Shown piece after piece: positions 5,780-25,032 of a stretch of DNA of 27,920 nucleotides. The translations under genes were made by a program, and so were the position numbers. The notes below the pieces were generated by a model that was not told where the DNA came from, searched no databases, and saw nothing but the letters and a program-made list of their open reading frames with translations. How positions within the stretch are numbered: the first letter of the stretch is position 1; each line of letters starts with the position of its first letter. Source of the stretch: a virus; the IMG/VR virus record IMGVR_UViG_3300011116_001255, positions 1 to 27,920 of that record; one strand, written 5' to 3'.

Positions 5780-6949
5780 CACATGCTAGAACAATATTCT
5801 TTAGCCACAGGGGTAAAGATAAAAAAGCCATATATTTACGAAAAATTTTTTCCAGTTGTAGTCGATAGGTATATTACTTTTCATCCTTCATCAAAACCTT
5901 CTAAGACTTATGATTATTGGCAAGAAGTGATTAATTTAATATTACCATATTTAGAAAAAAATAATATTAAAATCATACAGCTTGGAGAAGAGAAGGAAAA
6001 AGTTTATAGCAATGTAATTAATTATGTAGGATACACAAGCATTAATCAAGCGGCATTTATCCTGAGAAACTCAATGCTTCATTTTGGAGCTGATAGTTTC
6101 CCAACTCATATCGCGTCAGGATATGATAGAAAAATAGTAGCTTTGTATTCAAATAATTATATTAATTGCGTAAAACCATTTTTCGGCGATCCAAAAAACC
6201 ATGTACTTTTAGAGCCAAAAAGAACTACTAAACCTAGTTTTAGTTTGCAAGAAAATCCAAAATCAATTAATTTAATAAATCCAGAATTGATTGCAAAAAG
6301 AATTCTTAATCTCTTAGAGATTCCAGAAGAGATAGACGTTCAAACTATTTACTTTGGAGAAGACTTTAATAATGGTAAGTTGGAAATGGTTCCAAATCAA
6401 GTAGTGGATCCAAAACAATTTAACTGCGGAAACATTGTTGTTCGAATGGATATAGAGCATAATGAAAACATTTTAAATGCTCAATTAAAAGTATGTCCAT
6501 GTTATATAAGAACTTCCAAACCTATAAACGAGGAAGTATTATTACAAAATAAAGACAATATAACTAAAATCTTATTCGAGATAAAAGATAGTGAATCTAT
6601 TAATTTTATCAATTTCTTAACTCAAAAGAGTATTCCTTACCAATTATTTACTTATTTACAAGGTCAAGAACTTCAAAAAATTAAGCTTGATTATATTGAT
6701 CAAGATTTTATTATTGAGAAGCAAATTAATTTAAAATATAAAACAAATCTTGAATATACCTCGAATGTTTTTTATAAATCAAGTAAAAGAATAATTAGCG
6801 GCGGTAAAATTTATCTAAGCGACAGCTCTCTGAGTAACGGAGTAGAAGCTAAAAAATTAACTGAACCTGTTGTTGATTGTGCTGAATTTTGGAAGGAGTT
6901 GGAAAATTTTTGGATTTTTAAAGTTGATAAGGCGTCTGTTTCTTCATAG
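5777..6949 (+). CDS. C-terminal half of a GT9 glycosyltransferase plus an unknown C-terminal domain
   Basis: The 390-residue product begins HMLEQYSLATGVKI, which reads like the inter-domain helix of GT9 heptosyltransferase-type enzymes. It continues with their second Rossmann half: FHPSSKPSKTYDYW (35-48) matches the nucleotide-binding entry, and GADSFPTHIAS (104-114) matches the conserved Asp-Ser-x-x-x-His-Ile-Ala segment. The first half is at the end of the preceding gene. Residues about 185-390 are not recognised; they include CPCY near 240-243 and a Lys/Tyr-rich end. This part may be an acceptor or scaffold domain. The two genes probably work as one enzyme, either fused by frameshift or as two associating chains. 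Confidence 0.7.
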   Translation: MHMLEQYSLATGVKIKKPYIYEKFFPVVVDRYITFHPSSKPSKTYDYWQEVINLILPYLEKNNIKIIQLGEEKEKVYSNVINYVGYTSINQAAFILRNSMLHFGADSFPTHIASGYDRKIVALYSNNYINCVKPFFGDPKNHVLLEPKRTTKPSFSLQENPKSINLINPELIAKRILNLLEIPEEIDVQTIYFGEDFNNGKLEMVPNQVVDPKQFNCGNIVVRMDIEHNENILNAQLKVCPCYIRTSKPINEEVLLQNKDNITKILFEIKDSESINFINFLTQKSIPYQLFTYLQGQELQKIKLDYIDQDFIIEKQINLKYKTNLEYTSNVFYKSSKRIISGGKIYLSDSSLSNGVEAKKLTEPVVDCAEFWKELENFWIFKVDKASVSS

Positions 6950-7654: not shown

Positions 7655-10600
7655 TTAAATACCCATCCCCGGGGTATTAGATCCTGCAGATACAGATCCC
7701 GCGAAAGAGGAGTCTTTGGGGCTTATATTTCCTAAACCCTTGAATTGCGAGGCTTCTGTATTTATTGCTTCAATTCTTAATTTGAGATATTTTGAATCTT
7801 CTGGGTCTGCAGCGATAACGTAATCTCCTGTAGCAGGTATTTTAGATGAAAATTCTACATCTATAAATCTGCGATTTTTAGAAGGTTTAAAAGCGGTAAG
7901 CATAACTCTCTTATTTTGATATCCTGTAGGATATAAAACGGATGCTTTTATCTGAGCGTCTAAAAGATTGAAATCAGAATCATCATTAGCGTAAAAAGTA
8001 TAATAATTAAGTCTAAATGCTTTTTCGTCAACATAAGACCCAGTTAATGGAATATCAGTTATTCTAGCAAAGTTATTTGGATTTTGAATTACTAAGAATG
8101 GGAAATCTGTTGTAGAATACGAGGTAACATAATTTGAAAGGCGAACATTCAGTTTTTCTCCTACAACGAAATCATTTTGCAATGGATAAGTTGTGGAAGC
8201 TGTATAATAAGCATAATATTTAGATCCATCTTCACTTTGTGTAGCATAATCATTTCCAGAGAAAAGTAAAACACTTGGATTTCTCATGAAGAAACCAGAA
8301 GCAGGATTTAAAATAGTTAAATTAGAACCGCTCCAATAATTATCAGAAGGAGATGAAGAAACATTTGTTGTTAAAGTTACGCCCGTTACTGTTCCAACAA
8401 AAGGAGGAATTCTTGAAATATATGCAGTAGCTTCAGGAGTTTGTCCTCCGTATGAGGCCATCGTGATTGCAGATGTTAAAGTGGTATAGCCTTTACCAGC
8501 ATTGAGAATTCTATATCCTGTAATTGGCCCACCCGCTTGATTTAAGAAAACGATGTCAAACTTTTTCTTATCTGTTTGAAAATTAGTTGAAAATGTTTCT
8601 ATAATTCGCCCATTAGATTCGGAGAAGAAATCAACACCCGTTAAATTTTTTATTCCTTCTCCAACAAAAGAAATTATTGAACCATCGTAGCCGCTAATTT
8701 GAGAAGTACCATCTCCTCTATAAGTTAGTCTATTATTTAAATATCCATCTTTAAGAGAGATAAACGGAGAATAATTAAATCTACCAGAGACTCCATAAAT
8801 TTCATTCAAGTAAGTTTGTAAATAAAACATTCCTGTTACCGGTCTTACATCTTCGACATCTTTTCTATGAACATTTTTACCAGCAACCGAAGGTGGATAA
8901 AATTGAAGTTTGCTAAAATCTTTATATACGACACTAGAACTTAATTCTCTAGCGTCAATATTAATATTTATACCTGTCTTATATCCAACTTGAAGAGGAA
9001 CGGGGGCTCCAGCACCTCCGGAAGCACCAACTACTAGCTCTCCAACTCCTATGAATCTGATTCCTGTAACATAATTTAAATTTTCTCCAGTCAAAGTGAT
9101 TAGAGATCTATAGGTGCCCGTAGTGATATTTAAACCGGAAGATTTAATTAATGGAGCTTTTATTGTAATATTATTGAACATTTCATCTGGATCAAAACTA
9201 TTACGTTGGAAAAAGATTTTACCACTACCAATGTAGCCATCTAAGGTGATTTCATTTCCCGGATTGACAAAATTATAACCGAAACCGATTGCATCTGTTC
9301 CACTAATTAATAAATCTAAATCTTGAATTTGATAATTATCAGTAGATGATATATTTAATTTACCTGATAAAATTGAATATCCAGTATATGGATTACGAAC
9401 TCCAGTACCAGAAAGAGTAGAAACATCAACAACTGACATGTTCTGCGTAATCAAATATTGACCAGTTTTATTAGTTAATACATTATAGCCACTAATATAT
9501 AAATCTCTAGATTGAGATCTATGAGCATTTACTCCTGTTATAACAATAGAATCTTTCGACCTAAAAGTTACAGAATTAACTCCAGTTATTGTTGTACTAG
9601 GATTGAAAAATGGTGAAAACCCTTTTACTTCATCTGTCGTTCCAGAATTAAAAAATCTAAAACTAGCTCTCTTAACTTCTCTAGGAACGATAACTAAGGC
9701 CCCCGTTGAATCAATTATTGAAACGCCTGAATATTTAACTGGTTCATTATTAAATCCAATACCGTAAAAATCAAAACCACTTAAATTATTTCCAGATAAA
9801 AGAATTTCGTTTCCGAAATAAGCAGAGTTTGGTATAATTTTATTAATAATAGGATTTAAGAAAGTTAAAGATTCAGTTGTAGTAACTCTTCTGGAGCCAT
9901 TTAAAGTTATAGGACCATCTGTTATGTCATAAACTTGAGGAACGTAAAAGCTTAGTCCAGTAATGCTTTGGCTGGCAAAAGCCGTTACCACCTTGTACGC
10001 TCCATCTCTTCTGCCTAGTTCAAGAGAAGATACGGTATTTAAAAATTTACCTGACAATGTGATTAGTGTTCCGGCTAAACCCGTTAGCGGAGTAAAACCA
10101 TCAACAGATAAAAGTCCGCTACCGATAGCTAAACCGCTGGGATAAGTATAAGAATAATAATTTGAATTAATAGTTAAAAAATCTCCACTTTGAGCTAAAT
10201 CAGGAAGATTAAAGACTATTCTTTGTTTAAATTCAGAATTTAATCCAGAAACTGAATAACCCGTTACTTCATTACCCCCTATTGAAATAGATTTTATATA
10301 GTAAAGATCAGTTCCATAACCTGTTACAGGATCACCTTGGAACAATAAAGCAGGTTCAATTCCTGTTATTGATGGAGTTTTTAGAAAAGTAAATCTTTTA
10401 TCAAATCCGCCTGTTATTCTGGAGTACGTGTTATCTAAAACAACATTAGTTTTTCTAAGAGAAGAAAGATTTGGAGTATTTAATTTTAGATATCCAAAGT
10501 CCCTAGTATTATCGTCTATCAAACCAACATTTGCATGGATCAAGATTTCTGTATTAATATTATTTCTTGCCCTTCTTAGAGGGGCAAAATTTAAGAATTG

Positions 10601-13144
10601 ATAAGGATCTTCTTTTACAACTCTTATTTCGTCTATATACCCATTCCAATAATTGCTGCTATTATTTGGATAATCTCTACCAATATAAACATCAAATACA
10701 GGACTAGATAAAGATTTATCAGAATTTAAACTAAAATCTAAATTACTAGAAGAAAAATCCAACTGATAAAGGTCAGAAAATAAATTAAGACCGCTACCGT
10801 TAAGTAAAATTTTACCACTTATACTGTTTAAACTATTATAAGATTTTGAAATAGACAAGTGATTCCACTGATTAGTTAAAATCTTACCTGAAAAAACTGG
10901 AGAGAAACCATCCCAATCAATTCCAGAGATTACTACTTTATCAGAAGTTACGAATACATTTAATCCACTTTGCGTTCCAACAAGATATTTTGTATCTGAG
11001 GCTGAAAAAGAAGAACCGGGCTTGAAATCCAACTCGAAAGCAAAGCTTTTACCATAACTTAAAGGAACATTTGGGAATGCTCCAGTTATTGAGAACTTTA
11101 CATAAGAGTTTAGTGGATCAGCAAACGAAAAACTTCTGCCATCAAATCTTGATGTGGAGTTGTCTATTTTCGCAGAAGGCCCTATTGTCAAAGGCTTGCT
11201 TTTTCTAAATGTAGACTGATAAGAATAACTATTAGCAGATTCAAGGGCTTCAACATTAGAATTTTCATCACCCGTATCTTGGAATAAAAATTGAGAATCT
11301 GGATAAATGTTATGACCAATAATTTCTAAAGGACCACCAATATAATTCTCAAAAGAATTAATATTTTTAATGACTGGATTGCCTTTTATAATTTCGAAAT
11401 TTTCAAACAAGAAATCTTTTCCGCCAGAATTTTTAATTGTTATACCATAAACTCCCGGGGGCACATTTGTTCCAGTAAATGTTAAAGTTGTATTTGTAGA
11501 ATTTTTTCCAAAATCAGAAATAGAATAATTTCTATTATGGCCTCCATAATTTGAATCTTCAACATATCCAGAAATATTACTTATTACAGAAGAATTAATT
11601 CTATTTACTCTGTAATCAGTATCAGAAAAATCACCTTGTAAAAACAATACTGTGTTCTCAATATCGAAAATTCCTGAATTTCTAATTACTGAATCTATAT
11701 TATCATATAAACCTACGCCCTTTACAATTCTAAAATCTTCAAGACGACCTAAAAATCCATTAGCCCCTAGCGAATTTGTACCTACAAACAATCCGCTTCC
11801 AGCTGTTATTGTATAAGGGCTACCTGCCGATACGGTATTTGAATATTCTCCAGCTCCATCTTTAGCAGCTATATAAGTACTACCATTTGAAGAAGTTCTG
11901 GATATTACGACTTTTGTCCAAGTATTAGCTGGCACATTAGAAGTAGGAATCGTCGCTTTTGCGGCGCTAGTTGCATAGAAAGTCCAATCACTAGCACCTG
12001 CAGCTTTATAAAAAGAAAACCCATTTCCATCCAACCCTAAGTCTTGGAATAAATCGATTCGACTTGATGGATATGAAATAGGATTAATTAAAAATTCAAT
12101 AGTAAAAGGAGCAGCTCCAAAATGAAAATCTCCATTTAATTTCGAATCAACTTTTAAATAAGAATCACCACTAAACAATAAAGATCTCTTAAATAGAGCA
12201 GTTGAAGAAGAGGCTACCCCACTATTCAAAACAGATTTTGGCTCTCTATAATTGATACCGCTTAAAACAATACCCGTAACATAGTTAAAGTTTTTTCCAA
12301 TTGCCGTATTAGATTCTCCAGAGCTTAAGTAATAATTTAAGGAGCTTGCAACAAAAGGAGGTTTTAAAACTGTGACTTGAGATTTCGATGTAAAAGAAGT
12401 GTTATCAATTGAATTAATTGTAACAAAACCAGCATTGGCATTTTCTGGAACGACTCCAGTAATTACATTATTCGATCCAGTAAATCTGGCAGTTACAAAT
12501 CCTGTAATTCCGTTATCAACAGAAGTCGTAAAATTAACTGGGAAATAATTTTCACTTACAAAAGAAAGATTAAAGTTTCGACCTGATATTTTTAACAAAT
12601 CGCCCTCATATGGAGTGTTATTGCTAAAACCGCTTATAAAAATACTTCCATAAAAGTCAAAATCACTTAAAACAGAAACAATTCCTGTATTATTGAAACC
12701 ATTTACTCTAATTGGTCCAGTAGTATATCCAAATGGGACTTTTGCAAGCAATACACCACTAGTAGAATTATACGAAACATCAGTACCAAGTATATTATTA
12801 AAATATACAGTTTCAATTCCAAGTAAAGATTTGCCGCTTATTGTAACAAAATCTCCCGCTTCCTGTGTTGTTGGAGAAACTGAATCTAATCGTGGAACGG
12901 GGTAAAAACTTACTCCGCTAACGAACATTGGATCAGAAACGGTTTGTCCTGTAATAAAATAAAAATTAACAGGTCCTAAAGTTATATTCTCTGGAACTGT
13001 AAATTCTATATATTCGGGAGAAGCATCATGATATGAAAAATCAACGAAGCCTGCGTTTGGTAACTGCAGTCCGCTCAAAGCATAAAAACCTGCGCCTGTG
13101 ACGCGCATTTTTTGATTTATATTTCCTGTATTATAAGTTGGCAT
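7655..13144 (-). CDS. Giant IPT/TIG-repeat and LamG-domain virion protein
   Basis: The 1829-residue product is almost wholly beta-sandwich repeats. IPT/TIG-like units are visible near residues 84-165, 167-260, 922-1000, 1014-1095, 1098-1175 and 1331-1370. Each opens with a P-x-[IL]-x-x-[IV]-x-P-like strand and a G-x-x-[IL]-x-[IL]-x-G-x-[NF] turn (for example GTLITLSGKFL at 1025-1035). Shorter degenerate units lie near 265-300, 589-617 and 1480-1510. Two LamG/concanavalin-like domains are inserted: about 322-480 (PFTIEFLINP, GFLGRLEDFRIVK) and 667-845 (GYIDEIRVVK). Gly-x-Gly-Tyr-like repeats follow at about 1543-1630. No signal peptide or membrane segment is seen. It is likely a tail-surface or fibre protein that binds glycans. 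AAGGA lies 7 bases before the ATG. It is last in a four-gene minus-strand operon. Confidence 0.8.
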   Translation of the reverse strand: MPTYNTGNINQKMRVTGAGFYALSGLQLPNAGFVDFSYHDASPEYIEFTVPENITLGPVNFYFITGQTVSDPMFVSGVSFYPVPRLDSVSPTTQEAGDFVTISGKSLLGIETVYFNNILGTDVSYNSTSGVLLAKVPFGYTTGPIRVNGFNNTGIVSVLSDFDFYGSIFISGFSNNTPYEGDLLKISGRNFNLSFVSENYFPVNFTTSVDNGITGFVTARFTGSNNVITGVVPENANAGFVTINSIDNTSFTSKSQVTVLKPPFVASSLNYYLSSGESNTAIGKNFNYVTGIVLSGINYREPKSVLNSGVASSSTALFKRSLLFSGDSYLKVDSKLNGDFHFGAAPFTIEFLINPISYPSSRIDLFQDLGLDGNGFSFYKAAGASDWTFYATSAAKATIPTSNVPANTWTKVVISRTSSNGSTYIAAKDGAGEYSNTVSAGSPYTITAGSGLFVGTNSLGANGFLGRLEDFRIVKGVGLYDNIDSVIRNSGIFDIENTVLFLQGDFSDTDYRVNRINSSVISNISGYVEDSNYGGHNRNYSISDFGKNSTNTTLTFTGTNVPPGVYGITIKNSGGKDFLFENFEIIKGNPVIKNINSFENYIGGPLEIIGHNIYPDSQFLFQDTGDENSNVEALESANSYSYQSTFRKSKPLTIGPSAKIDNSTSRFDGRSFSFADPLNSYVKFSITGAFPNVPLSYGKSFAFELDFKPGSSFSASDTKYLVGTQSGLNVFVTSDKVVISGIDWDGFSPVFSGKILTNQWNHLSISKSYNSLNSISGKILLNGSGLNLFSDLYQLDFSSSNLDFSLNSDKSLSSPVFDVYIGRDYPNNSSNYWNGYIDEIRVVKEDPYQFLNFAPLRRARNNINTEILIHANVGLIDDNTRDFGYLKLNTPNLSSLRKTNVVLDNTYSRITGGFDKRFTFLKTPSITGIEPALLFQGDPVTGYGTDLYYIKSISIGGNEVTGYSVSGLNSEFKQRIVFNLPDLAQSGDFLTINSNYYSYTYPSGLAIGSGLLSVDGFTPLTGLAGTLITLSGKFLNTVSSLELGRRDGAYKVVTAFASQSITGLSFYVPQVYDITDGPITLNGSRRVTTTESLTFLNPIINKIIPNSAYFGNEILLSGNNLSGFDFYGIGFNNEPVKYSGVSIIDSTGALVIVPREVKRASFRFFNSGTTDEVKGFSPFFNPSTTITGVNSVTFRSKDSIVITGVNAHRSQSRDLYISGYNVLTNKTGQYLITQNMSVVDVSTLSGTGVRNPYTGYSILSGKLNISSTDNYQIQDLDLLISGTDAIGFGYNFVNPGNEITLDGYIGSGKIFFQRNSFDPDEMFNNITIKAPLIKSSGLNITTGTYRSLITLTGENLNYVTGIRFIGVGELVVGASGGAGAPVPLQVGYKTGININIDARELSSSVVYKDFSKLQFYPPSVAGKNVHRKDVEDVRPVTGMFYLQTYLNEIYGVSGRFNYSPFISLKDGYLNNRLTYRGDGTSQISGYDGSIISFVGEGIKNLTGVDFFSESNGRIIETFSTNFQTDKKKFDIVFLNQAGGPITGYRILNAGKGYTTLTSAITMASYGGQTPEATAYISRIPPFVGTVTGVTLTTNVSSSPSDNYWSGSNLTILNPASGFFMRNPSVLLFSGNDYATQSEDGSKYYAYYTASTTYPLQNDFVVGEKLNVRLSNYVTSYSTTDFPFLVIQNPNNFARITDIPLTGSYVDEKAFRLNYYTFYANDDSDFNLLDAQIKASVLYPTGYQNKRVMLTAFKPSKNRRFIDVEFSSKIPATGDYVIAADPEDSKYLKLRIEAINTEASQFKGLGNISPKDSSFAGSVSAGSNTPGMGI
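7658..7678. terminator. Possible hairpin at the convergent gene ends
   Basis: AATACCC at 7658-7664 and GGGTATT at 7672-7678 form a perfect 7-base inverted repeat around a 7-base loop. The element lies over the last codons of the minus-strand TIG gene, just past the stop of the plus-strand gene. Read on the minus strand it is followed by TAATTAC, not a true T run, so intrinsic termination would be weak. It is the only terminator candidate seen at this convergence. Confidence 0.25.
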
Positions 13145-13145
13145 T

Positions 13146-14225
13146 TTATAGTCCTTGGAACTTAGCGGATATAATTATATCATTTTTTGCAACACTTGTT
13201 TTGAAATTAAAAATTGAAGTTGATTGAGTCTCTTCTGTTTCTATTATAATTACAGCCGCACCTTTTAAAGATACTGGAGCGACAGCAGTTAAAACAGTAT
13301 TGGAAACTTGGGTAAAAGAGGTAGCTTTTTCATTACCAAAATAAACATTTTTTATATTAATAAAATTGTTTCCATTTATAGTAACTGTTGAGCCCGGTAA
13401 AATTACTCTAGGAGTAAAATCAGTTATGACTGGCTTGAAATGAGAAAAATCTTGTTTTAAATTAAAACTTGCTTTAGCGTACCCTTGTGTTTCGACAGAT
13501 ATTCTTTTGGAAGATAAAATTCCAGAAAAAGAAAGAGTATCTAAAGGTATGGCTCCAGTGAGCAGGTTTATGGTAAATCCCGCTGTCACTCCGCTAATTG
13601 GAAGTGACGTATTAAAATTATCTAGGTCAAAAGAAAGAGTTTGAGAACGTTTACCTAAGTAAGCTCTACCGCTTTGGTCAAAGGACGAAGAAGTCTCTTT
13701 TAGATATTTTTCTACTTCTCTTTGATACTGATAATTAAAATTAGTAAAAGTATTAGTATTAGAGTCAATTGAAACTCCGCCAAAATTTCCTGATAAATAA
13801 AAATTATTAAAATTTAAAGGTGTTATTTCAGGAAGTTGAGAAGGAGCGGCAGGATTAAAAGATCCTTTTAAATTCTCAAAAACTTTAAGCTGTAGATCAA
13901 CTTTTGCTAAATTATCTGGCGACCCTTGAACTGAATAGGAAGTTATATATCCATTTTCGAAATAAAGGCCACAGAAATTACCTGAAATACCCTGTTCAGA
14001 ATTAGCGCCAAGAATATATTCTTTTACAAAATCTTTGCCAGTTAAATAATAAGAAATAGAAAAGCTAGTATCTACAGTATCTTGAGGAGCGTAAGAATAT
14101 GAATTCTTTTTAAATTCTTCATTGTAAACAGGAGCTACTGAAGCATCAAGAGACATGTCCACATTAGTCGCTAATATGTCGACTCCGCTTAATTTAAATG
14201 TACAATTTTTATAATTAAAAAACAT
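13146..14225 (-). CDS. Tail structural protein, paralogue 3, with a C-terminal IPT/TIG domain
   Basis: The 359-residue product combines a beta-rich domain (about 1-260) shared with the two upstream genes and an IPT/TIG unit at about 265-343 (PVITDFTPRVILPGSTVTI). The shared landmarks are GYITSYSV (92-99) followed by KVDLQLKVFENLKG (108-121), and AYLGKRSQTLSFDLDNF (188-204). It is probably a tail tube or tube-associated protein whose added TIG domain projects outward, as TIG/Ig domains do on major tail proteins of other siphoviruses. The start codon overlaps the preceding stop (TAATG) and has a good GAGGAG Shine-Dalgarno at 14232-14237 on the minus strand. The giant TIG gene starts one base downstream of its stop. 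No exact family is claimed. Confidence 0.65.
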   Translation of the reverse strand: MFFNYKNCTFKLSGVDILATNVDMSLDASVAPVYNEEFKKNSYSYAPQDTVDTSFSISYYLTGKDFVKEYILGANSEQGISGNFCGLYFENGYITSYSVQGSPDNLAKVDLQLKVFENLKGSFNPAAPSQLPEITPLNFNNFYLSGNFGGVSIDSNTNTFTNFNYQYQREVEKYLKETSSSFDQSGRAYLGKRSQTLSFDLDNFNTSLPISGVTAGFTINLLTGAIPLDTLSFSGILSSKRISVETQGYAKASFNLKQDFSHFKPVITDFTPRVILPGSTVTINGNNFINIKNVYFGNEKATSFTQVSNTVLTAVAPVSLKGAAVIIIETEETQSTSIFNFKTSVAKNDIIISAKFQGL

Positions 14226-15028
14226 TAGAAACTCCTCTTTAATGATATTTTATTTTTAGCAAAATCATCAACATTAATTGATAAATTAGAATCATTGATT
14301 CTGCTACCTGAAGTGTCTAAAATGAAAATAGATTGATCTCCAAAAGTAGTAATATTAATTTTCGCATTCTCTGCTGTTGATAAAGCTGTATCAGCGAAAT
14401 TAGAATTAAAACCAGTTAGCGAAAAATCAAACGTTTCTTGCCCTGCAGATAAATCTACTTGAGCAGGTCTTTGCTTACCAACTCCATAAATTGGATTCCA
14501 ATCAATTTGTAACCCATAAGAAAAATCCAATACATTATATGATGCAGAGACTCCAGAAACTTTACTATTCCAAGAGTGAGCTATTCCAGAGCCACTATTT
14601 AAATTATTGATAGAAGCTTTTGAACTTAAAGAGCCCGAGATGTCAGAATAGTTAGAAAAAGAAACGTTAACTGGAATTTTAGAATTTGGAGCCACTTCTA
14701 AACTAAAAGAGGTTGGGTAAAAAGATCCACTTATACCAGCTATTCTTAATTGAACTGGGATTTGAGTTTCTGGAAAGCTATTAGCAAAAACTCCTGTTTT
14801 TACATAATCAAAGCACTTGTAGATTGGATCTACTATGTTTGGTAAGTAAGAAAAATTAACTACTGTTTCATCTTTTCTAGTTTTGAAAACTTGAGAAGAA
14901 TTCTTTCTGCCTATTACATAAGATGAATTAATATTTCTATTAACAGTAATAGACGCATTTTGAGCCAGAATTACTCCTGACCCAAAAGTAGAATTGAAAA
15001 TTACTTCACATTCATTAAAATATTTCAT
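14225..15028 (-). CDS. Tail structural protein, paralogue 2
   Basis: The 267-residue beta-rich product begins with an amphipathic strand region (FGSGVILAQNASITVNRN, 15-32). It carries the same landmarks as its neighbours: GSFYPTSFSLEV (101-112) followed by PVNVSFSNYSDISGS, then FSYGLQIDWNPIYGVGK and QETFDFSLTGFN in the second half. The architecture suggests a tube-like or tube-capping protein, but no known family can be named with confidence. It has no TIG domain, unlike the next gene. AAGG at 15036-15039 (minus strand) lies 7 bases before the ATG and overlaps the upstream gene's stop. A single major tail protein normally dominates expression; which of the three plays that part cannot be told here. 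Confidence 0.6.
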   Translation of the reverse strand: MKYFNECEVIFNSTFGSGVILAQNASITVNRNINSSYVIGRKNSSQVFKTRKDETVVNFSYLPNIVDPIYKCFDYVKTGVFANSFPETQIPVQLRIAGISGSFYPTSFSLEVAPNSKIPVNVSFSNYSDISGSLSSKASINNLNSGSGIAHSWNSKVSGVSASYNVLDFSYGLQIDWNPIYGVGKQRPAQVDLSAGQETFDFSLTGFNSNFADTALSTAENAKINITTFGDQSIFILDTSGSRINDSNLSINVDDFAKNKISLKRSF

Positions 15029-15037
15029 CCTTTTGCC

Positions 15038-15856
15038 TTATTTCAAATACCCTTTATACCTTACAGTTAATTCTACAGGAGAGTTTACACTAACCGATAA
15101 ATCTTCAGAAAAATCAATAAAATAACATAAAGAGTTAGAAAAATCAAAATTAACAGAATTATTATTAAAATCTCTAGTATTTATGTAAAAACCATTATTG
15201 TTTTTGATATTATAAGAAAGATCAGATAATTTTTGCAAACTATAAGAATCTTTTGGCAATGTAAAATCACAAGAAACTTCTAAAGGATAAATAGTCCTAA
15301 CAGAAAATGGTGTAGAAGATCCTAAATAATAAACTGGGCTTCTAGGGCAATTTATATTTAAATTAAATGAATTAACTCTATTTGTAGAAAAATCATTAAT
15401 TCCAATATCTATAGAATTTGAATTAACTAAAGAAACAGGGCTAGTTTTATTAAAAGAACCCTCTGTAGGAATTGTCCCTGCGTTATTATATATTTCAAAA
15501 TTAGCTCGCACAGTAGGGACTTCTCCTATTTGTGCGCCACAAGTATAAGATGTTAAATAACCGCTTTGAAAGCCAAAAAGAACATTAGAGCTTGGGTTTT
15601 GTTTTTTGGTGATAAATCCATAATTACCATTCTCCCCAGTACAAGAAATAAAATCATTAGTTGTTGTCAATAAAGAAGTTATCGATAAAGATGCGGTTTT
15701 AGCCCCTTCTGGGGTATAAAAACTACTATTCATACCAAGATATTTGGTATGTTGAACAGGCATTTGATACCCTGCTTGTATTTCTTGTACTCCATGGACC
15801 TGATTTTGATTCAGGTAAAAGTCCAAGTTTTGTTTATTTAATCTAGATAATGCCAT
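15038..15856 (-). CDS. Tail structural protein, paralogue 1
   Basis: The 272-residue product is first in the minus-strand operon. It has an N-terminal arm (about 1-45, Asn/Gln-rich, with YQMPVQHTKYLG at 30-41) and a beta-rich body. GYLTSYTCGAQIGEVP (99-114) followed by RANFEIYNNAGTIP (117-130) matches the GY-[IL]-TSY landmark in paralogue 3, and SPVYYLGSSTPFSVRTIYPL in the second half matches the Tyr-x-x-Gly landmark of the others. It is a candidate tail tube or tail-terminator-like protein. It is divergent from the gpM gene across a 58-base gap. The Shine-Dalgarno is poor (only AAG close to the ATG), so initiation may depend on the AT-rich leader. Confidence 0.6.
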   Translation of the reverse strand: MALSRLNKQNLDFYLNQNQVHGVQEIQAGYQMPVQHTKYLGMNSSFYTPEGAKTASLSITSLLTTTNDFISCTGENGNYGFITKKQNPSSNVLFGFQSGYLTSYTCGAQIGEVPTVRANFEIYNNAGTIPTEGSFNKTSPVSLVNSNSIDIGINDFSTNRVNSFNLNINCPRSPVYYLGSSTPFSVRTIYPLEVSCDFTLPKDSYSLQKLSDLSYNIKNNNGFYINTRDFNNNSVNFDFSNSLCYFIDFSEDLSVSVNSPVELTVRYKGYLK

Positions 15857-15914: not shown

Positions 15915-16469
15915 ATGTCAAACTCTATTTTTAATATCAACGAATGGAATGCTTCGGCTGTATACAATAAATATGATATTATTTCGTATACAGACAATCG
16001 CTTTTACTATGCTAAAACAAGCGTTCCCGCAAATAATCCGCCTGTTTATTCATCTGTAACTTCTGATTCTGATGTCTATTGGGGAGGGCATTTTAGACAT
16101 CCTATCTCCCAAAAAGATTATCCATATTTTTTCTGGAAACCTTCATATCAAACACAATCTAATTTTGAGCCTAAAGTTTCTGTTATTCGATATGGAGACG
16201 GATATGAAAAAAGAGTTAGTGACCAAATTAATTTTAATTTACTAAATTTTGAATTAAATTTTGAAGGATTAACATTAGATGAAGCCACTGCCATATTACA
16301 TTTCTTAACTGCCAGAAACGCAAAGCAAGCATTTATTTACTATCCATCACCCCCCTATTCAATTCCAACGACTGAAGCAAAACTTTTCATTTGTAGAAAA
16401 TGGAATTCAACTAATCCATTTTTCAATAATTTTTCTGTAAGAGCTTCTTTTGAAGAAGTACCTGCTTAA
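15915..16469 (+). CDS. Tail-tip protein gpM with an N-terminal CBM5/12-like module
   Basis: The 184-residue product contains a lambda gpM-type minor tail domain at about 70-182: FFWKP (72-76), then VIRYGDGYEKR (90-100), the family's Gly-Asp-Gly-Tyr-x-x-Arg signature. FEGLTLDEATAILHFL (116-131) and a closing FSVRASFEEV are also typical. Lambda gpM is 109 residues; the extra N-terminal part (about 10-57) has the pattern W-x(6)-Y-x(2)-D-x-I-x-Y...FYYAKTSVP-x-N-x-PP...W of small CBM5/12-like carbohydrate-binding modules. A related module is in gpL. It is first in the tail-tip operon. gpM acts in the ring of proteins that closes the distal tail tube. The start is set by AAGG 9 bases upstream. Confidence 0.85.
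   Translation: MSNSIFNINEWNASAVYNKYDIISYTDNRFYYAKTSVPANNPPVYSSVTSDSDVYWGGHFRHPISQKDYPYFFWKPSYQTQSNFEPKVSVIRYGDGYEKRVSDQINFNLLNFELNFEGLTLDEATAILHFLTARNAKQAFIYYPSPPYSIPTTEAKLFICRKWNSTNPFFNNFSVRASFEEVPA
15942..16085 (+). other. CBM5/12-like module in gpM
   Basis: Residues 10-57 of gpM. Aromatic residues (Trp11, Tyr17, Tyr20, Tyr25, Phe30, Tyr31, Tyr32, Trp56) are spaced as in short chitin-binding-type modules, and the YAKTSVPANNPP core matches the module in gpL almost motif for motif. Binding to sugar is inferred from pattern only. Confidence 0.55.
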
Positions 16470-16473
16470 TTTT

Positions 16474-17598
16474 ATGGCTACACAACAAGAAATAAAAGAC
16501 GCTTCAATAAAAGTAAATAAAGAATTCTTTTCTCTTGAGCCATCTTCTATTATTTCATTATTTGAAATAGATCTAACAGAACTTGGTTTCGAAAGTAATT
16601 CTCAATTTATTGTTAATCTCAGAAATTTCCAAATATCTTTACCTGAAATAGAAAAAGGTAATTTTAATTATAGGATCATAAGATTACACAATAATTTAAA
16701 ACTAATAAGAAATGTAATATTCTGGAAAGGAAACGCTTACTTGCCAGCGCCACTAGCAACAGAAGGATTTGAATTAGCTTCGAGAGGTGTATTTCCAAAA
16801 CCTAAAATACAAATATCATTTTCTGATGAAATGCTTGATATCTTTTCTCTTTTCAAAGGTACAGTAAACTTTGGAGATTTAATTGGAGCAAAATTTACCA
16901 GAATTAGAACATTCGCAAAGTTTCTTGATCGATCAAACTTTTATCAAGAAGACGGAATCTCTCCTCTTTCTAAAGATAAACTTCAAATTCCAGATGGATT
17001 TGATCCTGATCCAAACTGTGAATTTCCTAGAGATATTTATTATTTTGATCGAAAATCTTTAGAAAATAAAAATAGCATTCAGTTTGAGCTTTCTAGTTCT
17101 ATTGACCTTGATAGAGTAAAATTACCGAAGAGAAGAGTTTTAAGCTACGTGTGTCCTTGGCAATACAGAGGAGAAGGATGTTTGTATGAATATGAAGCAA
17201 GGCTAGAGGAATCAATTCATGGAACAACAACGCCTATTCCCAACAAAAAAGATTCTACTGGAGTATCTGCTCCAGTATGCGCAACAGAAGATGATCAAAT
17301 TATTTCTGAAATGTCCATTTTCGGCACAGCAACTCCTATTTCGAATAATCCAGTACTTTGGGTAAATGGAGTAGAATATAAAAAAGGAAATGTTGTTTAT
17401 ATCACGAAGAAAAATATAAATTTTTACTTTGTCGCTAAAACAGATGTGCCTATTAATATTCCTCCTCCCACTTCTGATTTTTGGATCGCAGATCAATGCT
17501 CTAAAACTATAAAAGGATGCAAAGCTAGATTTGGAGAAAATCCTTTGCCGTTTGGCGGCTTCTATGGAGTATCCAATTACAACAGAGGATTGCAATAA
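16474..17598 (+). CDS. Tail-tip protein gpL, iron-sulfur type, with a CBM-like insertion
   Basis: The 374-residue product matches lambda gpL: LEPSSIISLFEIDLTELGF (21-39), FWKGNAYLPAPLATEGFE (83-100), FTRIRTFAKFLD (141-152) and the C-terminal FGENPLPFGGF (353-363). Lambda gpL is about 232 residues and holds a [4Fe-4S] cluster in its C-terminal part. Here the candidate ligands are Cys227, Cys236, Cys342 and Cys349. The second and third are separated by about 105 residues holding a module at about 295-338 (YKKGNVVYITKK, then YFVAKTDVPINIPPP) akin to the one in gpM. An extra Cys269 lies in this insertion. A TTG at 16450 in the same frame would add 8 residues inside gpM; the ATG at 16474, five bases after the gpM stop, is preferred. 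It connects the tube end to gpK/gpJ. Confidence 0.85.
   Translation: MATQQEIKDASIKVNKEFFSLEPSSIISLFEIDLTELGFESNSQFIVNLRNFQISLPEIEKGNFNYRIIRLHNNLKLIRNVIFWKGNAYLPAPLATEGFELASRGVFPKPKIQISFSDEMLDIFSLFKGTVNFGDLIGAKFTRIRTFAKFLDRSNFYQEDGISPLSKDKLQIPDGFDPDPNCEFPRDIYYFDRKSLENKNSIQFELSSSIDLDRVKLPKRRVLSYVCPWQYRGEGCLYEYEARLEESIHGTTTPIPNKKDSTGVSAPVCATEDDQIISEMSIFGTATPISNNPVLWVNGVEYKKGNVVYITKKNINFYFVAKTDVPINIPPPTSDFWIADQCSKTIKGCKARFGENPLPFGGFYGVSNYNRGLQ
17356..17487 (+). other. CBM5/12-like module in gpL
   Basis: Residues 295-338 of gpL, between the two cysteine pairs. Trp296, Tyr302, Tyr309, Phe317, Tyr318, Phe319 and the core AKTDVPINIPP, followed by FW, match the layout of the N-terminal module of gpM. 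It most likely folds as an independent small domain that loops out between cluster-binding halves. Confidence 0.55.
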
Positions 17599-18353
17599 TG
17601 ATTTCGGATAAAATAAAAGCCAAGATAAAAGAACATGCAAAGCTTTTATATCCAGAAGAATGTTGCGGAATTTTAGCTCTAAATAAAGACAAATTACTTC
17701 CTCTTCGCTGCTCGAATATCTCAAAAGATCCAGTTAATGAATTTATAATTGACCCAATAGATTATTTAAATTGCTCAAAACAGGGTAAAATTATTGGGAT
17801 ATATCATTCTCACTGTATTCAAGATAATTCATTCTCGGAATTAGATAAACAAATCAGTCATAAATTAAATCTTAAAAATATTGTTTACATTGTTAAACGA
17901 GATACTTTTGAAGAATATTCTCCAGATAAATATTATAATAAATACATTGATAAAAATTTTATTATAAATGAATCTGATTGTTTGTCAATTGTTGAAGATT
18001 ATTATAAAGAAGAATTTGGAATAGATATTTACCATTATGAAAGGAGATCCGGATGGGATAAAAATTACGAAGAGTTTATAAAAGATAAATTAAATCAGTT
18101 TAGCTTATCTGAAAATTTCGATAATTTCTTCGAAAAAGAAAATTTCATTAAGATCCAAGGAATTGAAAACGCTAAAAAACACGACATCATAGCATTTAAA
18201 TATTTAGATAATTATCCATCTCATTTTGGTATTTATTTAGGGCAAGATTATATATTACATCAACCAAGAAACAAAAAATCAATAATAGAAAAATTAACAG
18301 AAGCCGAAAAGAGAAGAATCTATTGTTTCGCTAGAAATAAACAATTATGTTAA
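17598..18353 (+). CDS. Tail-tip peptidase gpK-like, copy 1 (JAMM plus NlpC/P60)
   Basis: The 251-residue product has the two-domain layout of lambda gpK. Residues about 1-115 form a JAMM/MPN zinc metalloprotease: YPEECCGIL (18-26) supplies the Glu, and HSH (70-72), seven residues, then SELD (80-83) complete HxHx7SxxD. Residues about 120-251 form an NlpC/P60 domain with Cys128 in ESDCLS, His209 in SHFGIYLG and a third polar residue at His221. Both active sites look complete. In lambda gpK acts in tail-tip assembly; the NlpC/P60 part may cut peptidoglycan during DNA entry. AGAGGA at 17584-17589 lies 8 bases before the ATG. The start overlaps the gpL stop by one base, and the gene overlaps copy 2 by 7 bases. 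Confidence 0.88.
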   Translation: MISDKIKAKIKEHAKLLYPEECCGILALNKDKLLPLRCSNISKDPVNEFIIDPIDYLNCSKQGKIIGIYHSHCIQDNSFSELDKQISHKLNLKNIVYIVKRDTFEEYSPDKYYNKYIDKNFIINESDCLSIVEDYYKEEFGIDIYHYERRSGWDKNYEEFIKDKLNQFSLSENFDNFFEKENFIKIQGIENAKKHDIIAFKYLDNYPSHFGIYLGQDYILHQPRNKKSIIEKLTEAEKRRIYCFARNKQLC

Positions 18354-19090
18354 CTGAAGAAGTAAAACAAGAAATTATCAGACACGCTGATACTTCAAAT
18401 AATGAAGTCTGTGGGGTAATTTTTTATTTAAATGGGCAGTTAATGGTACAAAGGAAAGAAAATTTAATAAATTCAGCGACAGAATTCATGATGAAAGTCG
18501 ATGAAAATAAAGGCATTGCGGCGTACTACCATTCTCATATAGATTTTGATTCTATTTCTCAGGCAGATCAAATCGTTTCTGAAAGATTAGGATTACCTTG
18601 TGTTGTTTATAATAAACAATCTGGATCTTTTTACATATACTCTCCTAACGGAAATAAAATTCAATACACAGGAAGACCTTTCCTATTAGGGTTTGCTGAT
18701 TGCCTTTGGCTTGTTAAAGATTATTATAAGCATAATCTCAATATAAATTTTATTCCAGAACCAGAAGTTTTAAAAACTTACGTAAACAAAGAAGAATATA
18801 ATTTTTTAATGACCAAAAGGTTTACGGATGAAGCAGAATATGTAAAAGATAATGATTTTCTTAAAAAGTATTTTGAAGCTAATGATTTTAGAGAAGTGAA
18901 AGACATAAAAAAGAATGACGTCTTAATAATGAGAACAAAGGCGTACAACTTTCCGATTCATTGCGCAATTTATATAGGCGAAGGAAAGATACTTCATCAT
19001 CCCGGAGACGCTATTTCAACAATCGAAAGACTTTCTAACGAATATAAAAAATGGGTAATTTACATAATGAGGCATAAACTTTATGACTAA
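18347..19090 (+). CDS. Tail-tip peptidase gpK-like, copy 2 (JAMM plus NlpC/P60)
   Basis: The 247-residue product repeats the layout of the preceding gene: JAMM residues Glu20 (NEVCGVIF), HSH at 62-64, and Ser71 with Asp74, here with six rather than seven intervening residues. NlpC/P60 residues are Cys119 in FADCLWLV, His205 in PIHCAIYIG and His217. The two copies share DCL-x(2)-V-x-DYYK and IY-[LI]-G...ILH-x-P...IE-[KR]-L, but are otherwise clearly diverged, so this is an old tandem duplication and both copies seem to be kept functional. Lambda has a single gpK between L and I. No clear Shine-Dalgarno is seen, so translation is probably coupled through the 7-base overlap with copy 1. It overlaps gpI by 8 bases. 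Confidence 0.85.
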   Translation: MLTEEVKQEIIRHADTSNNEVCGVIFYLNGQLMVQRKENLINSATEFMMKVDENKGIAAYYHSHIDFDSISQADQIVSERLGLPCVVYNKQSGSFYIYSPNGNKIQYTGRPFLLGFADCLWLVKDYYKHNLNINFIPEPEVLKTYVNKEEYNFLMTKRFTDEAEYVKDNDFLKKYFEANDFREVKDIKKNDVLIMRTKAYNFPIHCAIYIGEGKILHHPGDAISTIERLSNEYKKWVIYIMRHKLYD

Positions 19091-19830: not shown

Positions 19831-22800
19831 ATGAAAGATCTTGAAGAAATTAATTATATAAAAGGCTTTGGCGGTAAAGGCGGTGGTGGAGGTCAAGCTC
19901 CTCCTCCTACTCCTGCATACGAAGACATAGAAGGGTTTGTCTATAATGGTCAAAACTATAATGTTTATCAATTTGCTAAAGTTAAAGATCTTCTTTCAGA
20001 AGGGCCAATTGAAGGACTAGTACAGGGCGAATATTCCTATAAAGGAAGAGTGGGTGACTTAGGCTATACGGGTGTTTATTTCGATGAATATCCAACAGCG
20101 GTAGGAGAAAATGCTGCTTCTAATTTTTTAAGATCAGTGCAATGGAATGACAATCCTCTTTTAGATAGTCAAAACAAGTATAATTTCCAACAAATAGATA
20201 TAAACGTAGCAAAAGGTTCTGCAGTCGGAACATCTGTCGGAGGAGAATTTGATAATGTATCATATATTAGATCAATTGGCGAAAGACTAAGAGGTCCAAA
20301 TAAATTAGCTATTAATGAAGATGAGATTTCAGACTATAAAAAAACATATAGAATAATTAATAAAGAATGTAAAAAAATAAATATAAATTTTAGAATTTCA
20401 TCACTATATACATCTCTTAAATATCAAGATTTAGCATCAACAAAACAGTATAATCCAATCAATCCAATTAAAATTGAAGGAGTTCAATTTTCAGACGGCC
20501 TTAGTTATTTCCAATTAACTACAGCAGATCGCGAGCTAGAAAACGGACAAACAGATATAAAAGCGGGTGTTGGATCAGTAATTTATAATAAATTTCAAAT
20601 AAGAATAAAAACAACCCCAATCTATAAAGAAGGTTATAACAACAATCTTCCCGGATTAGACATAGTTTCTTCAGTTGCCCAAACAATAACAGATGAAAAA
20701 GATCTAGTTATAGTTCAGCAAAGTGCTCAACAAATATTCGAAATAGAATGCAAGGGTAAAATCACTCAAGGATATGTTAAACAAATTATTCTTGATTTAT
20801 CTCAAGTTTTCCCGGGCTTAAACGCAAATGATAACTGGATTGGCTGGGATGTTTCAATTATTAAAATAACTCCTGAAGATACTTTTAGCTCAAGAGCTTC
20901 TTTTATTTCTATTGATACAATTACAGAAATTTATTCATCTTCATTTCGATATCCAAATTCGGCGATTGTAACTTCGAAATTTAATGCAGCTTATTTTTCT
21001 AAAGTTCCAAGTAGGACTTATGATGCCAAATTATTAAAAGTAAAAGTTCCTAAAAATTATGACCCTTTAACAAAAACCTATGGAAATACTAATACGCTTA
21101 CAATAAATGAAACAGAAAACTTTTTCGGAGGAACAAGAGAAGAATCTTTAGATTATTATTTCGGAGAAAATAATCAATATGGAAACGATAATAATATAGT
21201 AACTCCAATATTTAATGGTTTAATTGCTCAATTCGATGCTGCGAATACAGCAAATGGGGGAGCTAATACGGCTGTAACAAACTGGCCTAATAGAATATCC
21301 GGAAGTCTTGTAACTTGTACTTTATCAGCATCAAAGCCTACATATGGTAAAACGGGAGAAACAAGCCCAAATGGTTCGCTTGGAGTAAGTTTTACAACTG
21401 CTCAAAACGCTACATTTTTAGATGGAACAAAGTTTTTATCAGATGCTAACGGCAATTGTACCGTATTTGTTGTTTGTAAATGGGATAATTCCGCTACAAG
21501 CGCACAAAGAAATACTATTTTACAAGGATATTATAATAATTGGTTTCTTGGATTTTATAATCAAGCTAACAGCAATTTTTATTTTGGAGGTTGGGCTTAT
21601 GGTGGATTTGACAGAAATGATATATTTAATTCTTCAAATTATTATCCCGGCGCAACTAATGATTCAAATACTTATATTGTTGGAGCAGTTATAAAAAGTA
21701 CTAATGACATAAATCTTTTTTGGCAAAATTCTATATTTTATAAAAAATTAAATTTTAAACCCACCGCGCCAAAGGGATTAGCAATAAATCAAGGGCAATA
21801 CGCTGCTAAAAGCGCATGCACAATTTTTGAAATACTTGTTTATAATAGAGCACTTCCTAAAGAGCAAGCTTTACAAGTTAGAAACTGGTTAAATAAAAAA
21901 TATAACGTTACGAGAAATAATGTTTCAACTTATTCTGATACAATTAAGAAATTAAACCCTTATTCATTGGTCGTAGGAGCTAGTTCTTATATAAAAATGC
22001 CCGTTAAGACTATTTGTAAAAATGGTCAACTCATGTTGGATTATAATGAAAAAAATTCTGATATATGGAATTATTCAGCCTTTGATTTAATTCCTCAAAG
22101 GAAATTCGAAGGGGACAATATACAGCGTAAATTTTCTTTGGGAGAACAAGGGTGGTGTAGTTTTCTTTTGGATTTTTATTTAAGAATAAAATCTGATCTT
22201 GCAGATGGCACATATACTATTGCATATAGAGCAAATCAATTTAATTTAGCAATAAAACTAAATGGTGATCAAGCTTCTTTGATACTGACAATCATTTCTA
22301 AAAACGATGGAAAAACTTATACAATAAATAAATTATTAGATAAAACTTTATTTTCTCCATCTATATTAAAATCTAGTTTTAAAAGAATAAGTCTTTATAT
22401 ACTACCGAAATTAATTAAACCAGATTTAAAAAATTCTAATGGAGCACAAGATTTTTTTAATACTGCTGGAAACAGTACTTCAACTTGGGATGAAACTTTA
22501 ACATATCAATACAAATTAAAAATTAATCAATATAACCGTTTAGTAGAAGCATTTTCTTTTAGAGAAGATGATACTTTTAGTAATATATCTACCTTATGGG
22601 ATACTTCAAAAAAAATAATAGGTGTTGATATTAGACAAGGTGGATCTTATAGTAGTTATTCTTTCTCTGCATATAGACAAGTAGATGCTTTTCCAGATAT
22701 TATTAATGCAGAAGTTAATGTTTTAATAGACTTACAAACACAAATACAATGTAAAATAAATATATCAGATTATTACTATTATCAAACAATGTGTATAGGT

Positions 22801-25032
22801 CATGCAAAAAGACCAATATTTAAAGAAATTCAAGGAACAACAACGGAATTTCCGGGACAAAATTTAGTCTATAGTAACTATTTTCATTATTGGAGTGCTA
22901 TTGATTTATATAATAATAAAGTAAAACCAGCTTTGGATGAATATAACAATAAAGCTATTGATGCTAGATTCGATGGAAATAGTCAATCCGTATCTTTAAC
23001 GACATCGCAATTTACAGTACTGCTTCCTATTGTAAGCGATCAAATATTAACTTACGTAAACAAAACTAAAGTTAAAACCGGTCCATTTATTCCAAGCAGT
23101 TTCATAGATAATAATGAACAAGTAGAGTTTTTTAATTCTAATACGTATGGTTCAAAAATAGAAGGCTATGCAGATTCAATTAGAGTTAATCAAATAGAAT
23201 TTAATCGAACCTCTCTTTCTCAAGCTTATGCAAAGAATTTAATATCTAATGGTTTTGAAAGAAGACAGTTGATATACGCTGCAGACGGAGTGACATCTTA
23301 CGAATTATCCACTGATTATTGGGATGGAGAATTCAAAGCAGAAAAAGAATGGACAGATAATCCCGCTTGGTGTTTCTATGATCTTTTAACAAATAAAAGA
23401 TATGGAGTAGGTAATTACATTCCAGAATCTGATGTAGATAAATGGTCTTTATATCAAATAGCAAAATATTGCGATCAATTAGTCCCAGATGGTTTTGGCG
23501 GTGTCGAACCTAGATTTACCTGTAATCTTTACATACAATCACAAGAAGATGCTTTAAAAGTATTAGCTGATATGGCTTCTATTTTTAGAGGTATGTTTTA
23601 TTATTCCAATGGATTTATCTATGCAATTAATGACATGCCACAAAGCACTGCTGTTTACACTTTTACCAACGCAAATGTAACAGATGGAAATTTTAATTAC
23701 GAATCCACTTCATTAAAAGATAGAAATTCTGCTGTTTATGTCAGATATATTGATAAAAATAATCTTTATAAGCCAGCTGTTGAGTATGTTGAAAATATTG
23801 AGGCAATAAGAAAATTTGGTTTTAGAGAATCTGAATTAACCGCTTTTGGCTGCACAAGTAGAGGTCAAGCTCAGAGATTAGGAAGATGGCTTTTGGCTTC
23901 AGAATATAACGAAACTGAAACTGTTACATTTGAAACAGGACCAGAATGTGTTTATTTAAAACCCGGAGATGTCATAAAAATATACGACTATAATAAAAAA
24001 TATAAAACAGTCGGCGGAAGATTAAATTTAATTAATATTTCCGGCGATTCTCATGCGACGACTGGAACATTTACATTAGATAGAAAACTTGATTTTAATT
24101 TCTCAGGAGATAAAAATTATAAATTAAGTATTCTCGCTCCTAAGTTTAATTTAGATCCCAGCTTTAGTGGTGCTGTGAATAGCAATTTAGACTACAATGA
24201 ATATAGAAAATCTTTAGTTAATTCGTTTATTATAAATAGCGGTAATTTAATTACAGGACAGAAGCATGATTCTATTCAAATCACTGGACTAACTTCAGTC
24301 ATGACCTCCGGATTAAATGTTACCGGGTTATCTTACTTTACTGGTAGTCAAGGAATGGCTCCTCAATCTATTATTTGGAGTTTAGAAAATTCTGGTAATT
24401 TAAACGGTTCTACAGATAGTGATTATGATTACTATAGAATATTCAGAATCCAAGAATCCACAGAAGGAACTTCTTATACAATAATGGGTTCTCAAATGTA
24501 TCATTTGAAATATACTCAGATCGAATCTGGTTTAAATATGACCCCAGCTATAGCTCCTACTCCAGAAGCTTCTTCTCCTTCTCATGTGTTATTTGAGGTT
24601 CGAGACGATTTAATAGTTATAGGTATATATTACAATCCAGAAATAAAAAGTTCAACAATCGGATTTAAAATATTCATAAAACAATCCTATGATGCTTCAT
24701 TTAATCCAAATAAAGATTCTCAATACGCTTTTGTACCTATCATATTAGATGACTCAAAAATAAATACGACTATTCCTAAACCTACTGAGGGCGGAGAAAT
24801 AAGAGTATATGGAACAAATATAAATAATCAGTCTCCACTGTCTTATGTTACTGCTAAAAATGTAAGTAACGCATCCTCAGACTCAGTGAGTATTGGTTCA
24901 TACATAAATTCAAGCGCAGTAAATAAAAATTCTTCAATTCAATTATTTGGAAATAATTTTGATTTTAAATCTCCAATCAGTCAAAAGAGGACTAATTACT
25001 TTGAACGTTCAAAAAATATAGAATCAACTTAA
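19831..25032 (+). CDS. Tail-tip hub and host-specificity protein gpJ, with a very large insertion
   Basis: The 1733-residue product is a lambda gpJ-type central tip protein (lambda J is 1132). A Gly/Pro-rich start (14-27) is followed by VKDLLSEGPIEGLV (51-64), the hallmark of the N-terminal hub. RYPNSAIV (373-380) and VKVPKNYDP (404-412) are conserved. The core then resumes at YWDGEFK (about 1160) with TDNPAWCFYDLLTNKRYGVG, FGGVEPRFTCN, MASIFRGMFYY and LKPGDVIKIYD. In ordinary J proteins these two parts are close together; here about 740 residues intervene, including a LamG-like domain at 458-693 and an unrecognised beta-rich part. The C-terminal region (from about 1400), normally the receptor-binding end, is Ser/Asn/Gly-rich. 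The gene starts one base after gpI without a clear Shine-Dalgarno, so coupling is likely. Confidence 0.93.
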   Translation: MKDLEEINYIKGFGGKGGGGGQAPPPTPAYEDIEGFVYNGQNYNVYQFAKVKDLLSEGPIEGLVQGEYSYKGRVGDLGYTGVYFDEYPTAVGENAASNFLRSVQWNDNPLLDSQNKYNFQQIDINVAKGSAVGTSVGGEFDNVSYIRSIGERLRGPNKLAINEDEISDYKKTYRIINKECKKININFRISSLYTSLKYQDLASTKQYNPINPIKIEGVQFSDGLSYFQLTTADRELENGQTDIKAGVGSVIYNKFQIRIKTTPIYKEGYNNNLPGLDIVSSVAQTITDEKDLVIVQQSAQQIFEIECKGKITQGYVKQIILDLSQVFPGLNANDNWIGWDVSIIKITPEDTFSSRASFISIDTITEIYSSSFRYPNSAIVTSKFNAAYFSKVPSRTYDAKLLKVKVPKNYDPLTKTYGNTNTLTINETENFFGGTREESLDYYFGENNQYGNDNNIVTPIFNGLIAQFDAANTANGGANTAVTNWPNRISGSLVTCTLSASKPTYGKTGETSPNGSLGVSFTTAQNATFLDGTKFLSDANGNCTVFVVCKWDNSATSAQRNTILQGYYNNWFLGFYNQANSNFYFGGWAYGGFDRNDIFNSSNYYPGATNDSNTYIVGAVIKSTNDINLFWQNSIFYKKLNFKPTAPKGLAINQGQYAAKSACTIFEILVYNRALPKEQALQVRNWLNKKYNVTRNNVSTYSDTIKKLNPYSLVVGASSYIKMPVKTICKNGQLMLDYNEKNSDIWNYSAFDLIPQRKFEGDNIQRKFSLGEQGWCSFLLDFYLRIKSDLADGTYTIAYRANQFNLAIKLNGDQASLILTIISKNDGKTYTINKLLDKTLFSPSILKSSFKRISLYILPKLIKPDLKNSNGAQDFFNTAGNSTSTWDETLTYQYKLKINQYNRLVEAFSFREDDTFSNISTLWDTSKKIIGVDIRQGGSYSSYSFSAYRQVDAFPDIINAEVNVLIDLQTQIQCKINISDYYYYQTMCIGHAKRPIFKEIQGTTTEFPGQNLVYSNYFHYWSAIDLYNNKVKPALDEYNNKAIDARFDGNSQSVSLTTSQFTVLLPIVSDQILTYVNKTKVKTGPFIPSSFIDNNEQVEFFNSNTYGSKIEGYADSIRVNQIEFNRTSLSQAYAKNLISNGFERRQLIYAADGVTSYELSTDYWDGEFKAEKEWTDNPAWCFYDLLTNKRYGVGNYIPESDVDKWSLYQIAKYCDQLVPDGFGGVEPRFTCNLYIQSQEDALKVLADMASIFRGMFYYSNGFIYAINDMPQSTAVYTFTNANVTDGNFNYESTSLKDRNSAVYVRYIDKNNLYKPAVEYVENIEAIRKFGFRESELTAFGCTSRGQAQRLGRWLLASEYNETETVTFETGPECVYLKPGDVIKIYDYNKKYKTVGGRLNLINISGDSHATTGTFTLDRKLDFNFSGDKNYKLSILAPKFNLDPSFSGAVNSNLDYNEYRKSLVNSFIINSGNLITGQKHDSIQITGLTSVMTSGLNVTGLSYFTGSQGMAPQSIIWSLENSGNLNGSTDSDYDYYRIFRIQESTEGTSYTIMGSQMYHLKYTQIESGLNMTPAIAPTPEASSPSHVLFEVRDDLIVIGIYYNPEIKSSTIGFKIFIKQSYDASFNPNKDSQYAFVPIILDDSKINTTIPKPTEGGEIRVYGTNINNQSPLSYVTAKNVSNASSDSVSIGSYINSSAVNKNSSIQLFGNNFDFKSPISQKRTNYFERSKNIEST
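21202..21909 (+). other. LamG/concanavalin-like domain inside gpJ
   Basis: Residues about 458-693 of gpJ. The segment opens FNGLIAQFDAANTA and has a Trp-Pro/Asn turn (TNWPNRISG). It ends in FEILVYNRALPKEQALQVRN followed by WLNKKY, the usual closing strand and helix of LamG-like jelly-roll domains in bacterial and phage surface proteins. It sits within the long insertion and probably folds as a separate sugar- or surface-binding unit. Confidence 0.7.

Follow-up and report, generated by a model that had tools for sequence, protein, structure and literature searches.

The window analysed here, a 27,920-nucleotide stretch of viral DNA (positions 1 to 27,920 of IMG/VR record IMGVR_UViG_3300011116_001255), encodes two adjacent tail-tip proteins, one resembling gpM of phage lambda and the other gpL, and profile and structure comparisons indicate that both carry the same type of small module, similar to carbohydrate-binding modules of the CBM5/12 families.

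Modules in the Dit and hub proteins

The gpM-like distal tail (Dit) protein (184 aa; 15915-16469, plus strand) matched lambda gpM (8iyk_M, 9e-7), which was also its best Foldseek match (4e-5), and contains a Phage_min_tail ring domain (Pfam PF05939, 1.4e-16, 61.2 bits against a cut-off of 39) at residues 72-182 (16128-16460, plus strand). The alignment with lambda gpM covers residues 72-181 only, so that residues 1-71 are additional. Within them lies a CBM5/12-like module at residues 11-56 (15945-16082, plus strand), supported by Pfam CBM_5_12 and hhalign, whose central strand holds the aromatic triplet F30-Y31-Y32 (16002-16010, plus strand; from alignment columns).

The gpL-like hub protein (16477-17598, plus strand) has 373 aa, starts with an ATG and the residues MATQ, and matched PF05100 (2.6e-36) and the equivalog model TIGR01600, phage_tail_L (133.4 bits against a cut-off of 70.75). 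In lambda gpL, Cys173/182/205/212 are the ligands of a [4Fe-4S] cluster in a domain that faces outward at the tail tip (PMC10721106). The corresponding residues in the window, C226 and C235 (equivalent to Cys173/182; 17152-17181, plus strand) and C341 and C348 (equivalent to Cys205/212; 17497-17520, plus strand), are all invariant in the alignment of relatives and are predicted to be [4Fe-4S] ligands. Lambda gpL aligns with residues 81-242 and 330-367, and because the alignment breaks there, residues ~243-329 and beyond represent an insert between the two cysteine pairs. This part of the protein comprises a variable linker with low identity between lineages (residues 241-294; 17197-17358, plus strand) and a CBM5/12-like module at residues 295-336 (17359-17484, plus strand), supported by the AlphaFold segment and VIA-align, in which alignment columns place the aromatic triplet F316-Y317-F318 (17422-17430, plus strand). 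The earlier note, made from the sequence of the window, had described one carbohydrate-binding-like module as an N-terminal addition in gpM and as an insertion between two cysteine pairs in gpL, and both placements were borne out.

The two modules are related

Paired residues of gpM and gpL are W11/W295, Y17/Y301, F30-Y31-Y32/F316-Y317-F318, P42-P43/P330-P331 and W56/W336. The core AKTxVPxNxPP, part of the resemblance noticed originally, is present in both window proteins (gpM 33-43, gpL 320-330), but in gpM its exact form is limited to close relatives of the window phage; the deep pattern common to both modules consists of W-x5-Y, a (D/G)-x-(I/V) strand, (FY)-Y-(YF), P and W. When the module alignments of 19 gpM and 25 gpL sequences, from relatives gathered from IMG/VR, were compared as profiles, hhalign gave a probability of 91% and an E-value of 9.6e-7, with a score of 31.4 against 17.4 for the best of 300 column shuffles and 11.7 for a reversed alignment. 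Each module profile detected the other copy in the window (E 0.0019 and 0.00063), and neither HMM found a further match among the other window ORFs. One might suspect that aromatic- and proline-rich stretches resemble each other by chance or low complexity, as the segments are short and single-sequence Pfam matches fall under the cut-off. This reading is refuted by the shuffled and reversed controls, and the reciprocal detection and the conservation across lineages near 40% identity speak against it as well, leaving it a negligible likelihood. At the level of sequence profiles, the two modules are related beyond chance, and the claim that gpM and gpL bear the same module type was upheld.

A CBM5/12-like fold

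Modules of the CBM5/12 type have a core Tyr and a C-terminal Trp in common (PMC8449059). Alignment columns place the core Tyr in 17 of 19 gpM and 25 of 25 gpL modules, and the C-terminal Trp in 18 of 19 gpM modules (the other has Phe) and 25 of 25 gpL modules, so that both families retain this hallmark. Pfam CBM_5_12 (PF02839) matched 11 of 19 modules in the gpM family, with a best value of 9.2e-5, and 3 of 25 in the gpL family, with a best of 6.9e-4; the gpM module of the window scored 15.0 bits, below the gathering threshold of 26.2, and its gpL module gave no match to PF02839. Against an enzyme set of seven CBM5/12 sequences taken from PDB matches, hhalign returned 85% for the gpM module and 33% for the gpL module, with none of 200 shuffles as good in either case.

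The AlphaFold model of gpL has a mean pLDDT of 40.9 and is confident only at about residues 270-345, with module values mostly of 64-84. In VIA-align, CBM5/12 domains dominated the matches of this module, those of chitinases and chitin deacetylases aligning with Z 2.5-4.2 and an rmsd of 1.2-3 Å over 41-51 residues in most rows, and comparable domains of phage fibres and spikes were also matched. These Z values are weak alone, and their weight comes from agreement with the sequence profiles; taken together, the gpL module is predicted to have a CBM5/12 fold. For gpM (mean pLDDT 56.5), whole-chain Foldseek and VIA-align searches listed Dit proteins and gave nothing informative on the fold of the module, which we call CBM5/12-like from its profiles. 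The CBM5/12-like nature suggested by the earlier note was thus supported for the families, by profile matches and by the gpL model.

Two other candidate identities were discarded. Four of 25 gpL modules matched SH3_2 (best 7.7e-4), which was set aside since the structural matches are CBM5/12 domains, and matches of the gpM-profile HMM to viral attachment glycoproteins (E ~0.1, 28 residues) were attributed to chance.

Ligand aromatics are missing and a strand is newly aromatic

For chitin binding, CBM5 modules use two neighbouring aromatics, Y-W or W-W, and a third aromatic residue, and in ChiA1 the ligand residue named is Trp687 (PMC8449059). Each of the seven enzyme CBMs compared has the aromatic pair or the Trp. 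Of the 44 phage modules, none has an aromatic residue in one ligand-pair column, 1 has one in the other (1/88 in total), and 2 have one in the column of ChiA1 Trp687. Both module families thus lack the canonical CBM5/12 ligand aromatics. The central strand differs in the opposite direction: aromatic residues occupy positions -1, 0 and +1 of its Tyr in 17, 18 and 19 of the 19 gpM modules and in 24, 25 and 25 of the 25 gpL modules, such that the two flanking positions are aromatic in 41/44 and 44/44 phage modules against 0/7 enzyme CBM5/12. Strand alternation would turn the flanking residues towards the opposite face of the sheet. A belt of potential sugar-binding domains around the tail tip had been envisaged. 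The decoration of both proteins is real, but the alignments do not support canonical sugar binding by such a belt, because the positions of the pair and of Trp687 are non-aromatic in nearly all members; a relocated or non-CBM glycan site is conceivable. The missing residues are also a caution against naming such modules sugar binders from the fold alone.

Distribution and inheritance

We surveyed 188 loci with both genes, sampled from module-bearing queries and core searches. Both modules were found in 104 loci and neither in 75 (7 of which had a gpL spacing that could not be parsed); a further 4 had the gpL module together with a gpM module that an insert splits (HMM E 0.015-0.068), and in 5 gpM was cut by the contig end. 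Not one of the 188 was a single-module locus. When trees were built from the cores of gpL and gpM by a quick method, with the modules left out, each needed one state change, with support of 99 and 95, so that one origin of the modules suffices on both trees. Since a clade amounts to a single evolutionary event, the co-inheritance shows linkage, not contact. Identity was 34% in the gpM module against 49% in the gpM core, and, as means across lineages, 40% in the gpL module against 43% in HDI and 31% in the linker (here 241-289), the lowest in the protein. As judged from these alignments, the modules diverge more than the cores, yet are not hypervariable.

The phages that carry the modules form a large, aquatic and uncultured group. 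Searches of cultured phages found none with a module in gpM or gpL, the matches ending before the module or skipping it, and Synechococcus phages S-H1 and S-CBS4 have gpM and gpL without it. A single-sequence gpM search of viral contigs confirmed nothing.

The gpL loop as a display site

Where gpL has no insert, the cysteine pairs are 22-23 residues apart (23 in 53 of 54 parsed cases), whereas with an insert the spacing is 65-310 residues. Several surveyed loci have other domains here. The gpL homologues of loci L260 (2634-4235) and L287 (624-2168) carry a bulb-type D-mannose lectin between the Fe-S cysteine pairs (B_lectin 2.9e-10, above the cut-off, and 6.3e-7, just below it; L287 against Pyocin L1, 5e-20). 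L294 and L301 have a motif similar to the lectin and the cysteine spacing of L287, and L129 was also grouped with the lectin-bearing homologues. Large inserts at the same site in S-CBS4 (L125, 2962-4359), S-2L (L308, 2401-3708) and L256, two of the three being cyanophage proteins, look from their sequences like small beta domains on a stalk formed by a helical hairpin. In Marine virus AG-345-A17 (L124, 7415-8407) the gpL homologue has an insert in the N-terminal domain, cupredoxin-like by eye, and its reading frame stops before the Fe-S region. An oligosaccharide-binding domain has been proposed at the same place in the hubs of RcGTA (PMC7296036) and the marine phage R4C (PMC10276861). The Fe-S loop of gpL is hence a recurrent display site, accepting CBM-like, lectin and apparently stalked domains.

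Other genes in the window

Downstream of gpL are tandem gpK-like genes (17598-18353 and 18347-19090), both with NlpC/P60 and PHROG 30 matches and looking like a duplication; the first also matches Prok-JAB. The gpJ homologue (19831-25032, 1733 aa) appears LamG-like by eye at about residues 460-690, where Pfam gave no match. Four minus-strand genes divergent from gpM (7655-15856) include those for an 1829-aa protein with Laminin_G_3, a TIG-domain protein and a 267-aa protein without a match; the fourth gene, at 15038-15856, has a weak tail-tube match (PF18906), under the cut-off. The region at 684-6949, beside the tail genes, holds two glycosyltransferase-like genes and one for a polymerase of the DNA polymerase III alpha type. 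Matches of the DNA polymerase were remote and mixed, and no host was assigned from them.

Possible roles and origin of the paired modules

We propose that the two related modules would sit on the outer surface of a tail tip of the lambda type, the gpM ring presenting six by its N-terminus and the gpL hub three by the Fe-S cysteine loop; we infer these copy numbers and the outer location from lambda. For the gpM modules an outer location is sensible because six would hardly fit in the 3-nm lumen (PMC11101478). The N-terminus of the RcGTA Dit contacts the hub and megatron proteins (PMC7296036), and by analogy the gpM module would sit near gpL. The best explanation at present, held tentatively, is that the paired decoration serves as a structural collar, the new aromatic face packing the modules against each other or against neighbouring tip parts. 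We infer both this packing and the function, in which the collar would brace the Dit-hub junction around the Fe-S domain and any glycan contact would be secondary. We favour it because the ligand residues are missing and there is no hypervariation. Against it stand the weak AlphaFold models overall, and the co-inheritance within a single clade, which need not mean physical contact. The mannose-lectin and oligosaccharide-binding domains in the same gpL loop also argue against it, in the direction of surface adhesion. Because of those domains (the B_lectin of L260 and L287 and the domains proposed in RcGTA and R4C), there is a real though not preponderant case that nine low-affinity modules form a belt which touches polysaccharide on the host surface by way of a non-canonical site, such as the relocated aromatic strand, ahead of receptor binding by the J fibre. 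The CBM-like fold, the possibility that the aromatic triplet is a new binding platform and the Gram-positive phage Dits whose CBMs were shown to bind hosts (PMC7291167) agree with such a belt, but the canonical aromatics are missing from both families and the modules are not hypervariable.

The likeness of the modules might also reflect nothing but membership in a pool of CBM5/12-like phage tail modules from which each was recruited separately. Similar modules in the F2-pyocin fibre, the Milano tail spike and the Anabaena CIS baseplate speak for such a pool, but both modules arise on the same branch and have the (FY)-Y-(YF) triplet in common, which is missing from the seven enzyme CBM5/12 compared, and we consider separate recruitment rather unlikely. 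A further reading is more speculative still and is, in our judgement, improbable: a CBM5/12-type module would have been duplicated into the Dit and the Fe-S hub, lost its sugar site and gained an aromatic face on the other sheet side, the two copies thereafter acting as partners in a lock or trigger between Dit and hub around the [4Fe-4S] domain. Tip decorations are usually treated singly; in these phages neighbouring rings display a single type of module, and the two copies have remained together over deep divergence, so that the role of the surface-exposed Fe-S domain of gpL can be tested by way of its insertion loop.

Comparison with known systems

Lambda gpM and gpL have the homologous ring and hub domains and the four Fe-S cysteines, and no modules. 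The suggestion that there is no lambda equivalent is therefore right for the modules themselves, but less so for the site, since the hubs of RcGTA (g13) and roseophage R4C likewise have an extra domain between the two cysteine segments of a gpL-type hub with the Fe-S cluster kept (PMC7296036, PMC10276861), as does gpL here, and the Dit of R4C is decorated too (PMC10276861). Their inserts, of ~80 residues, are similar to the insertion in LKA1 gp49 and to T4 hub domains; the structural matches of the gpL module are CBM5/12 domains, and LKA1 gp49 and T4 hub folds are missing from the list, which does not exclude them. Unlike in gpM and gpL, the decorations on Dit and hub in these systems differ from each other.

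Evolved Dits of Lactobacillus, lactococcal and streptococcal siphophages combine a Dit ring with a carbohydrate-binding-like module, as gpM does (PMC7291167). Their CBMs are larger, often of the BppA type, and lie in galectin-domain loops, and host binding was shown (PMC7291167), whereas gpM has an N-terminal CBM5/12-like module of ~46 residues that lacks the canonical site and has a counterpart in gpL. The chitin-binding CBM5/CBM12 modules ChiA1 (1ed7), SgChiC (2d49) and CjCBM5 (6z40) have the fold and the core Trp-Tyr-Val-Tyr-Pro-Trp in common with the phage modules, which differ in having neither the ligand pair nor Trp687 and in their extra aromatics beside the central-strand Tyr. Similar in sequence are residues 866-903 of the F2-pyocin fibre and Milano gp124, the F2-pyocin module also reading VPAKTAPPNAAYW and having no WW pair, but these modules belong to fibres and spikes instead of the Dit and hub rings. 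The architecture described here hence belongs to a known class, with a decorated Dit and a domain in the Fe-S loop, and what is new against the literature searched is one module on both rings, strict co-inheritance and a shared aromatic face.
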